This document shows positions 12,262-14,639 of a stretch of 40,258 nt of DNA, in pieces. This stretch comes from Candidatus Phocaeicola faecipullorum. GTDB taxonomy: Bacteria; Bacteroidota; Bacteroidia; Bacteroidales; Bacteroidaceae. The stretch is taken from NCBI GenBank assembly GCA_018884025.1, contig JAHLFB010000215.1, forward strand, positions 1 through 40,258, in the 5' to 3' direction. Position numbers and translations under genes: made by a program. The notes beneath the pieces were generated by a model. That model saw only the letters and a list, made by a program, of their open reading frames with translations. It was not told the origin of the DNA and ran no database searches. Every line of letters starts with the position of its first letter. Within the stretch, counting starts at the first letter, position 1.

Positions 12262-13656
12262 ATGGAACAAGTTTTCAGTTACATCATCGGGCTAGGCGCA
12301 GCGGTGATGATGCCTATTATTTTCACAATCTTAGGCTTATGTATTGGAATTAAATTTGGTAAAGCTCTAAAGAGCGGTTTGTTGGTAGGTGTCGGATTCG
12401 TTGGTTTGTCTGTAGTGACAGCATTGTTGACAAGCAGCCTTGGTGATCCGTTGAAAAGAGTAACAGAAATTTATGGTTTAAGTCTTGGTATTTTTGATAT
12501 GGGTTGGCCTGCTGCCGCTTCAGTAGCATACAACACTTCTGTAGGAGCATTTATAATTCCTGTATGTTTGGCTGTAAACATTGTCATGCTTCTTACTAAA
12601 ACTACAAAAACTGTCAACATTGACCTTTGGAACTACTGGCATTTTGCTTTCATAGGTGCGGTAGTTTATTTTGCAACCGAAAATATATGGTGGGGATTCT
12701 TTGCCGCTATCATCTGTTATATCATCACACTTGTAATGGCAGACCTTACTTGCAAGCAGTTCCAGGGATATTATGACAAGATGGACGGAATTTCCATTCC
12801 ACAACCTTTCTGTCAGGGATTTGTACCATTCGCAATCGTTATCAACAAGGCATTGGATATGATTCCGGGATTCGACAAGCTCTACATCGACGCTGAAGGT
12901 ATGAAGAGAAAATTCGGTATCATGGGTGAACCTCTTTTCCTTGGTATCGTAGTAGGATGTGGTATCGGTATGCTTGCATGTAAAAACGGTCAGGAAATGG
13001 TTGACAGCATTCCTGCAATTCTAGGACTTGGTATCAAGATGGGTGCCGTAATGGAACTTATCCCACGTATCACTTCATTGTTCATCGAAGGTCTTCGTCC
13101 AATTTCTGACGCGACTCGTGAACTTATTGCACGCAAATTCAAAAACAGTGCAAACCTTAACATTGGTATGAGCCCTGCCTTGGTTATCGGTCACCCTACA
13201 ACTTTGGTTGTATCACTGTTGCTCATTCCTGTAGCATTGTTCCTTTCTGTAATACTTCCTGGAAACCAGTTCCTTCCATTGGCATCACTAGCCGGAATGT
13301 TCTATCTGTTCCCAGCTGTACTTCCTATAACAAAAGGTAACGTATTGAAAACATTCCTCATAGGATTGGTTGGCCTCATCGTTGGTCTTTATTTTGTAAC
13401 TGACCTGGCTCCATTCTTCACACAGGCTGCCCACGACGTATTCGTCAAGACAGGAGATGCTGCCGTTAAGATTCCTGACGGATTCCAAGGCGGTGCATTG
13501 GACTTTGCGTCAAGTATTTTCTCATGGTGTATTTTCCACCTTGTATATAACTTCAAATATGTAGGTTCTGCCGTATTGGTAGCAATAGCACTTATCATGG
13601 CTATCTACAACAGAACACGTATTATCAAAGAAGCAAAAGCTCACAGCAATAATTAA
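12262..13656 (+). CDS. Orphan PTS IIC permease, galactitol (GatC) family
   Basis: This is an integral membrane protein of 464 residues with about 10 hydrophobic segments. It resembles the galactitol PTS IIC family: an N-terminal GLGAAVMMPIIFTILGL segment, a SLGDPLKRVTEIYG loop, a FDMGWPAAASVAYNTSVGA block, and the C-terminal half with NIGMSPALVIGHPTTL. No IIA, IIB, HPr or Enzyme I gene is near, and Bacteroidetes generally lack a working sugar PTS. It therefore probably acts as a phosphorylation-independent transporter. It lies 26 bases before kduI, which points to a keto-deoxy-uronate or related sugar acid as substrate. Codon use is rich in GGT and CGT-type codons, hinting at good expression. 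Confidence 0.8.
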   Translation: MEQVFSYIIGLGAAVMMPIIFTILGLCIGIKFGKALKSGLLVGVGFVGLSVVTALLTSSLGDPLKRVTEIYGLSLGIFDMGWPAAASVAYNTSVGAFIIPVCLAVNIVMLLTKTTKTVNIDLWNYWHFAFIGAVVYFATENIWWGFFAAIICYIITLVMADLTCKQFQGYYDKMDGISIPQPFCQGFVPFAIVINKALDMIPGFDKLYIDAEGMKRKFGIMGEPLFLGIVVGCGIGMLACKNGQEMVDSIPAILGLGIKMGAVMELIPRITSLFIEGLRPISDATRELIARKFKNSANLNIGMSPALVIGHPTTLVVSLLLIPVALFLSVILPGNQFLPLASLAGMFYLFPAVLPITKGNVLKTFLIGLVGLIVGLYFVTDLAPFFTQAAHDVFVKTGDAAVKIPDGFQGGALDFASSIFSWCIFHLVYNFKYVGSAVLVAIALIMAIYNRTRIIKEAKAHSNN

Positions 13657-13682
13657 TCTAAACTCTATAAAACAATAAGAAC

Positions 13683-14639
13683 ATGAAAAAATTAGCATTA
13701 GCAATGATGATGGGTATAGCTGCCATCTCAACAAACGCACAAATAAACTACACAGTACAAACAGCATGTCATCCGCAGGATGTTAAGCACTACGACACTG
13801 AACGCCTACGCAGTTCTTTCGTAATGGAAAAAGTTATGGCTGCTGATGAAATCAATTTGACTTATACACTTTACGACCGTTTGATTTACGGTGGTGCAAT
13901 GCCGGTAAACAAGGTTTTGAAACTTGAAACTTTCCGCGAACTTGGTCCTGAAATCACTTACTTCCTTGAACGTCGTGAACTTGGTGTTATCAATATCGGT
14001 GGTGACGGTGTAGTAACTGTTGACGGTAAAGAATACCCTATGAAATATAAAGAAGCATTGTACGTAGGTTGCGGTAACAAAGAAGTTACTTTCAAGAGTA
14101 ACGACGCAAGCAAACCAGCTAAATTCTATATCAATTCTGCTCCTGCTTACAAGCAGTACGTTACACAGTTGATTACAACTGACGTTAAAGCACAGAAAGC
14201 TGAACCTAAGAAATATGCTTTGGCTATCTCTGACCACTATGGTAAGATGGAAGACAGCAACGACCGTGTTGTAAACCAGCTCATCGTAAAAGACGTTCTT
14301 GAAAGAGTAAAGAACGGTGGTACTAACCAGTTACAGATGGGTCTTACTGAACTGGCTCCGGGTTCTGTATGGAACACAATGCCTGCTCACACTCACACTC
14401 GCCGTATGGAAGCATACTTCTACTTCAATGTTGAAGAAGGCAACGCTATTTGCCACCTGATGGGTGAACCTAAAGAAGAACGTCTGGTATGGCTTCACAA
14501 CGAACAGGCCATCACTTCTCCAGAATGGAGCATCCACGCTGCAGCAGGTACACGCAACTATACTTTCATCTGGGGTATGGCTGGTGAAAACTTGAAGTAC
14601 AGCGACAAAGACGAAATCAAATATACTGATATGAGATAA
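13683..14639 (+). CDS. kduI: 5-keto-4-deoxyuronate isomerase with predicted signal peptide
   Basis: KduI converts 4-deoxy-L-threo-5-hexosulose uronate, formed from unsaturated uronates, to 3-deoxy-D-glycero-2,5-hexodiulosonate. All four zinc ligands known in E. coli KduI are present: His236 and His238 (AHTHTRRME), Glu243, and His285 (SIHAAAGT). The SYFLERRELGVINIGG-type core is present as TYFLERRELGVINIGG. The protein has 318 residues against 278 in E. coli. The extra 40 are an N-terminal hydrophobic leader (KK, then LALAMMMGIAAIS, ending TNA before Gln20) and an insert near residues 165-195. The only Met codons before the conserved region are 1 and 8-10, all inside the leader. Export to the periplasm is therefore predicted, which is unusual. 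It ends in a terminator. Confidence 0.93.
   Translation: MKKLALAMMMGIAAISTNAQINYTVQTACHPQDVKHYDTERLRSSFVMEKVMAADEINLTYTLYDRLIYGGAMPVNKVLKLETFRELGPEITYFLERRELGVINIGGDGVVTVDGKEYPMKYKEALYVGCGNKEVTFKSNDASKPAKFYINSAPAYKQYVTQLITTDVKAQKAEPKKYALAISDHYGKMEDSNDRVVNQLIVKDVLERVKNGGTNQLQMGLTELAPGSVWNTMPAHTHTRRMEAYFYFNVEEGNAICHLMGEPKEERLVWLHNEQAITSPEWSIHAAAGTRNYTFIWGMAGENLKYSDKDEIKYTDMR

Follow-up and report, generated by a model that had tools for sequence, protein, structure and literature searches.

The window (the whole stretch of DNA analysed, 40,258 nucleotides) carries, both on the forward strand, a gene for a galactitol-type orphan IIC permease, a predicted PTS-independent carrier (positions 12262 to 13656; 464 amino acids; PF03611), and kduI, the gene for a 5-dehydro-4-deoxy-D-glucuronate isomerase with an export signal (positions 13683 to 14639; 318 amino acids; NF002091). 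They are separated by a spacer of 26 bases (13657 to 13682, forward strand), inside which a terminator scan found none. Both open reading frames, the exact gap and the families agree with the preliminary description of this DNA, which had placed a galactitol-type IIC 26 bases ahead of an exported KduI. The window IIC matched PF03611 at 266.5 bits (Pfam profile search; cut-off, 24.2) and stayed below the cut-off of the galactitol IIC model TIGR00827 (367 bits; cut-off, 542.2), and is thus a relative of GatC that lies outside that subfamily. The window KduI scored above the cut-off of the equivalog NF002091 (372.3 bits; cut-off, 250) and was matched by solved KduI structures, the best being PDB 9kd0 (E value, 1e-132). 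Between the window and locus L002, dN and dS were 0.011 and 0.53 for the IIC gene and 0.012 and 0.30 for kduI, and both genes look to be under purifying selection in this comparison.

Ahead of the IIC gene (positions 12174 to 12204, forward strand) lies an exact match to TTG-N20-TAnnTTTG, which we take to be the Bacteroidales promoter consensus. Such a match is alone no proof of function: the window holds three, against 0.91 expected, and at least three occurred in 7 of 100 shuffles. A sigma-70 scan found no site on the forward strand. A hairpin scan placed a terminator-like hairpin of 15 pairs with a T run 3′ of kduI (14661 to 14695, forward strand). The two genes had been described as standing under one promoter and one terminator; a promoter match and a terminator-like hairpin are indeed in place, and a single transcript of IIC and kduI is plausible.

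Around the pair lie genes for sulfate activation, a sulfotransferase, complex I and an ABC transporter accompanied by a GntR regulator, all seemingly unrelated to it. The sulfate-activation cluster, 5′ of the pair at positions 5344 to 11995, comprises a CysQ-type nucleotidase, an anion permease, an APS kinase, CysD- and CysN-like genes (by eye) and the sulfotransferase, and is present too in Bacteroides caecigallinarum (L013).

Conservation of the pair and of the KduI export signal

Contigs were scanned for IIC, and the best 80 of 571 loci (71 to 98% IIC identity) were taken. KduI DNA lay downstream of IIC in 76 of these 80; among the other four, the contigs of L059 and L076 stop early, and L011 and L072 are truly without it, no KduI having been found within 10 kb of their IIC. 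The 71 loci with a KduI open reading frame within limits had a median gap of 32 bases, and the gap was at most 120 bases in 61 of them. Neighbours were counted at the level of open reading frames in 79 loci (L059, whose contig ends so that it has no IIC open reading frame, was left out). The eight without a complete KduI frame inside the limits were L016, L048, L052, L060 and L076, which end soon after IIC; L015, lost to an early start codon; and the real absences L011 and L072. L023, with KduI in two pieces, was counted as having it. One IIC match (P0001) was 677 amino acids long.

In a separately drawn set of 151 genomes from the window's family, IIC was present in 53 and KduI in 89. Split matches in G236, G341, G219 and G345 were merged to give 54 IIC genes in the 53 genomes, and 100 KduI genes were classed. 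KduI stood within 1 kb of 53 of the 54 IIC genes. IIC was found in 6 of 198 Bacteroidales genomes, each with an adjacent KduI (KduI itself in 47), and in 3 of 395 Bacteroidota genomes, all within the window's family.

The window KduI opens with a signal-peptide coding stretch of 19 codons (positions 13683 to 13739, forward strand; read from the sequence), its N terminus being MKKLALAMMMGIAAISTNA|QINY. It reads as a Sec-type signal, by eye and by our own script, and we infer that the enzyme is exported by it. In the family survey every IIC-adjacent KduI was signal-bearing (53 of 53). Only 2 of the 47 non-adjacent KduIs were so by eye: one in G202, where IIC lies on another contig, and a duplicate in G205. 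The script had flagged 6 of the 47, of which G202 was kept and L196, L197, L198, L203 and L226 were reclassed as signal-less because of upstream read-through before the canonical MKTNYE start; the G205 duplicate (L175), which the script had called signal-less, was added by eye. The 36 family genomes with KduI and no IIC held no signal-bearing KduI by eye, three that the script had flagged through TTG starts being signal-less on inspection, and 33 of the 41 IIC-less KduI genomes among the 198 Bacteroidales, when checked by eye, likewise showed no signal. Both KduI forms occur in nine genomes, the exported one being the IIC neighbour, and 44 of the 53 IIC genomes have the exported KduI alone. 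The preliminary description had named the lack of a conserved gene neighbourhood as a result that would speak against its proposal; the neighbourhood is in fact strongly kept.

A start-codon artefact was considered as the source of the signal and rejected: the signal is present in 53 of 53 IIC-adjacent KduIs, and the alignment to PDB 9kd0 opens with the mature Gln opposite residue 2 of that structure.

In a kduI tree (204 rows thinned to 141, by a quick method with a single long-branched outgroup), the exported KduIs formed one clade after correction of one label. The tree needs three signal changes, of which L093 was mislabelled by pattern and the second copy in L040 looks like a loss. Repeated independent gain of the signal was accordingly rejected, one gain being counted after these corrections, and the correlation of IIC with the signal thus represents a single long-kept event and not many independent ones. 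The second KduI of L040 (16201 to 17124, reverse strand) is near the exported type and has apparently lost its signal. In L013, identity to the window genes is 97% for IIC and 71% for KduI, which is no more than suggestive of an exchange of kduI beside a similar IIC and was set aside.

Phosphotransfer partners and the IIC binding pocket

The preliminary description had reported no IIA, IIB, HPr or Enzyme I in the window, and this holds: a Pfam scan of 28 open reading frames (cysD, cysN and the frame at 34844 to 37534 left out) found no PTS protein besides the IIC. Profile searches of its own genome (86% complete) found no HPr, EI N-domain or IIB, and neither HPr nor IIB was found in the close relative G321 (97% IIC identity; 99% complete). 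HPr was not found in 55, nor IIB in 54, of 57 IIC genomes. A complete PTS elsewhere, which would have spoken against the original proposal, was thus found neither in the genome itself nor, judged by HPr, in 55 of the 57. One of the 198 Bacteroidales genomes contained HPr, and the EI N-domain was confined to that same genome, which has no IIC. Two genomes of a single genus, G202 and G229, give both HPr matches and two of the three IIB matches, the third (G341) being weak. In G229 (L299, 3788 to 7382), HPr lies with mannitol-type-EII-like and EI-like genes (by eye), and HPr occurs in G202 too; this genus is an exception to the absence of the PTS in Bacteroidales.

The same genus would favour a reading in which the IIC is a decaying relic, or is active only where a PTS is supplied, because there HPr, with EII- and EI-like genes alongside, accompanies an IIC. 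The IIC gene of G236, a close relative, would favour it as well, being interrupted: it is in two pieces with an internal stop (C381, 29521 to 30911), its KduI signal start intact. Against this stand the missing HPr in nearly all IIC genomes, the purifying selection suggested by the window and L002, and residues that are invariant across 83 orphan IIC rows, and we regard decay or PTS dependence as highly improbable.

An AlphaFold2 model of the window IIC (pLDDT, 78.7) gave TM scores of 0.78 against GatC (PDB 9u82) and 0.64 against UlaA, and the predicted fold is of the GatC/UlaA type. Substrate contacts of UlaA were taken from the available part of PMC6048161 and located by alignment to UlaA, on which both of the following assignments depend. 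The position of UlaA Asp314 holds Asp in all 10 PTS-type IICs, whereas the window IIC has Ser304 there (three of three alignment modes); that of UlaA His194 holds His in 8 of the 10, and Gln181 in the window IIC. Other contact residues aligned poorly. Gene neighbours were checked for the nine PTS-type IICs other than 9u82: eight have annotated adjacent IIA and IIB, and one has IIA with a small hypothetical gene in the place of IIB. Of the 83 orphan rows, which are not independent, 81 have Ser and 2 have Thr at position 304, and all of them have Gln181. The lost negative charge in the pocket would fit a carboxylate substrate. Two plasmid IICs that have no annotated IIA or IIB nearby retain the Asp, so its loss is no general mark of orphan IICs. 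These galactitol-type genes, from Enterobacter hormaechei (L268, 3989 to 5410) and Enterococcus faecalis (L270, 3977 to 5413), neighbour genes for a ribokinase, a LacI regulator and a ribulose-phosphate 3-epimerase; the gene tables, which are incomplete, list neither IIA nor IIB within 4 kb. The two may represent another type of uncoupled IIC, one that depends on a cytosolic kinase.

Pathway neighbours and the presumed cargo of the IIC

In relatives the unit is larger than two genes, adding dhuD, kdgK and kdgA and often a DUF4861 gene. Among the 79 loci counted (from the best 80 of 571), DhuD lay upstream within 4.5 kb of IIC in 31, KdgK was present in 22 and KdgA in 19. All of dhuD, kdgK, kdgA and kduI accompanied IIC in 15, and the IIC gene stood immediately 3′ of dhuD in 14. 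L073 to L075 and L077 have the order dhuD, IIC, kdgK, kdgA, kduI (extra genes intervening in some), and G205 (L301) has kdgK-dhuD-kdgA-IIC-kduI adjoining SusC- and SusD-like genes. DhuD begins MVNFSLEGK, with no signal by eye. The window kduI has no dhuD nearby and so falls outside the type E kduI-dhuD clusters; the dhuD of its own genome lies on a different contig, beside a DUF4861-like gene (by eye), and the window thus appears to hold one half of an operon that has been split. In many Bacteroidales loci, a KduI that is signal-less by eye sits beside DhuD with no IIC.

In L010, dhuD and IIC are separated by a DUF4861 gene, and other loci have similar genes by eye. DUF4861 (PF16153) recurs beside dhuD in clusters with and without IIC (L010, 8741 to 9988; L104, 6250 to 7497; L108, 6215 to 7558), which suggests a role for these proteins in DHU metabolism. 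In L070 (8316 to 9941; the same gene at 4050 to 5675 of L091), the C-terminal part of dhuD is fused in frame, just before IIC, to a signal-bearing polygalacturonase-like stretch (541 amino acids), through an assembly error or a real rearrangement.

The own genome has three PF07470 matches (60, 37 and 28 bits, weak against a cut-off of 26.6), each with a lipoprotein-type signal at its start by eye. In B. faecis (L028), a GH88/105 gene and two pectinesterase genes, with export signals by eye, lie divergently to the pair, which is followed by an MFS gene; B. finegoldii (L259) has the same layout, with pectinesterases, IIC, kduI and MFS. This MFS gene could be an alternative or sharing importer.

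The adjoining MFS genes lend something to a reading in which an MFS or other permease imports the uronate while the IIC, under shared regulation with KduI, carries another compound freed from the same polysaccharides, either an alditol or a neutral sugar; the family is also named for galactitol, and GatC-type IICs carry neutral sugars. That reading sits badly with the loss of the pocket Asp and with L072 to L077 and G205, where IIC lies amid the dhuD, kdgK, kdgA and kduI genes and no intervening MFS gene was seen, and we consider it improbable. Less probable again is that the exported KduI uses galacturonate or glucuronate and that the IIC imports the resulting keto-hexuronate. E. coli KduI reportedly acts on galacturonate or glucuronate, which counts for this proposal, as do the pectin-related surroundings of the pair in B. 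faecis and B. finegoldii; the neighbours, however, are DhuD, KdgK and KdgA, and the enzyme scores as a DHU isomerase equivalog.

The main rival concerns DHU instead of DK-II (3-deoxy-2,5-hexodiulosonate): the IIC would carry DHU itself, or both alike, and the exported KduI would merely equilibrate the periplasmic pool. Specificity is unreadable from sequence, and nine genomes retain a signal-less KduI that could use imported DHU. In the other 44 of 53 IIC genomes, however, no signal-less KduI was found, so DHU imported there would meet no known isomerase; we hold DHU as the cargo to be unlikely. Where the exported KduI is the only one and DhuD has no signal, the product of KduI must cross the inner membrane, and these 44 genomes are the strongest point for import of DK-II.

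A proposed entry route and its relation to known systems

The pair probably provides the step by which the unsaturated-uronate pathway crosses the inner membrane, periplasmic KduI converting DHU to DK-II and the orphan IIC importing DK-II unphosphorylated. Outside the inner membrane, GH88/GH105 enzymes would free the unsaturated uronate, and in the periplasm the signal-bearing KduI would turn DHU into DK-II. The IIC, of GatC/UlaA type by predicted fold, would then bring DK-II into the cytosol, either by facilitated diffusion or coupled to ions; transport itself, its substrate, its direction and its energy coupling are what we infer. Cytosolic DhuD would reduce DK-II to KDG, which KdgK would phosphorylate before KdgA cleaves the product, reductase and kinase together providing the pull otherwise given by PTS phosphorylation. 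The preliminary description had proposed such a periplasmic KduI with import by the IIC without phosphorylation, which the pairing, the pathway genes and the failure to find a PTS support, DK-II being the presumed cargo. Some observations go against the model: L011 and L072 have an IIC and no KduI within 10 kb, G205 has one signal-like KduI with no adjacent IIC, G202 and G229 carry HPr, and G025 has the pair with an aberrant dhuD and no PF07470 match.

The earlier statement that no system of this form had been described stands in part. The available text of PMC6281302 (2018) reports lone homologues of the galactitol IIC in five of seven Bacteroides strains with the PTS phosphoryl-transfer proteins missing, calls these IICs monocistronic and suggests that they are secondary carriers, naming there no substrate or partner. 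The idea of an orphan IIC as a secondary carrier was therefore already available; its exported partner and its link to a pathway appear new. In Bacteroides thetaiotaomicron the IIC is BT4107 according to PMC10434189, and relatives lead one to expect a kduI beside it. The window IIC resembles the Bacteroides orphan IIC TC 4.A.5.1.4 of that paper in being a single galactitol-type IIC free of PTS phosphoryl-transfer proteins; unlike that IIC as described there, it has an exported KduI as partner, and some loci add genes of the DHU pathway. It shares PF03611 and the predicted-model fold with GatC and UlaA (PDB 9u82, 4rp8 and 5zov); those proteins work with IIA, IIB, HPr and EI, whereas here HPr, EI and IIB were not found in the genome, and Ser and Gln occupy the places of Asp and His in the pocket.

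The kduI-dhuD clusters of Bacteroidota have been described (PMC12838403, in part), and those of type E likewise combine a DHU isomerase, reductase, kinase and aldolase; the sections available discuss neither export of KduI nor an inner-membrane importer for Bacteroidota. GH88 of B. theta is called periplasmic in the accessible part of PMC6994673, and periplasmic breakdown ends in DHU, with no transporter for entry to the cytosol named in the corresponding parts of PMC6994673 and PMC9067506. According to excerpts of PMC12089948 and PMC10989795, mutant forms of E. coli GatC and a GatC-like IIC transport glucose or xylose with no PTS, the GatC mutant taking up glucose without ptsHI (PMC12089948). 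They resemble the present proposal in having a galactitol-type IIC that is active without phosphorylation but, on the same excerpts, were selected in the laboratory in an organism with a PTS and are not a natural dedicated system. The streptococcal hyaluronan-disaccharide PTS (PMC12838403 and PMC9067506, in the parts available) also uses a PTS-family permease for unsaturated uronate products, as proposed here; it is, in contrast, a complete phosphorylating PTS and brings in a disaccharide for cleavage in the cytosol. Among the matches listed from open-licence PMC papers, we found no description of an exported KduI in near-strict linkage with an orphan IIC and in this pathway context, and nothing specific in the vesicle-proteome literature.

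On balance we lean towards the wider reading that a PTS permease permanently cut from the PTS serves as a dedicated gate for a diketo acid made in the periplasm, and that it would be the missing inner-membrane importer, in many gut Bacteroidales, for the uronate portion of pectin and glycosaminoglycans, with isomerization preceding import in reversal of the customary order. The step that takes DHU to the cytosol would gain a specific candidate transporter in gut Bacteroidales feeding on pectin and host glycosaminoglycans, and the orphan galactitol IIC that has long been noted in Bacteroides would gain a possible function. If true, this would be a natural PTS permease operating without phosphorylation.
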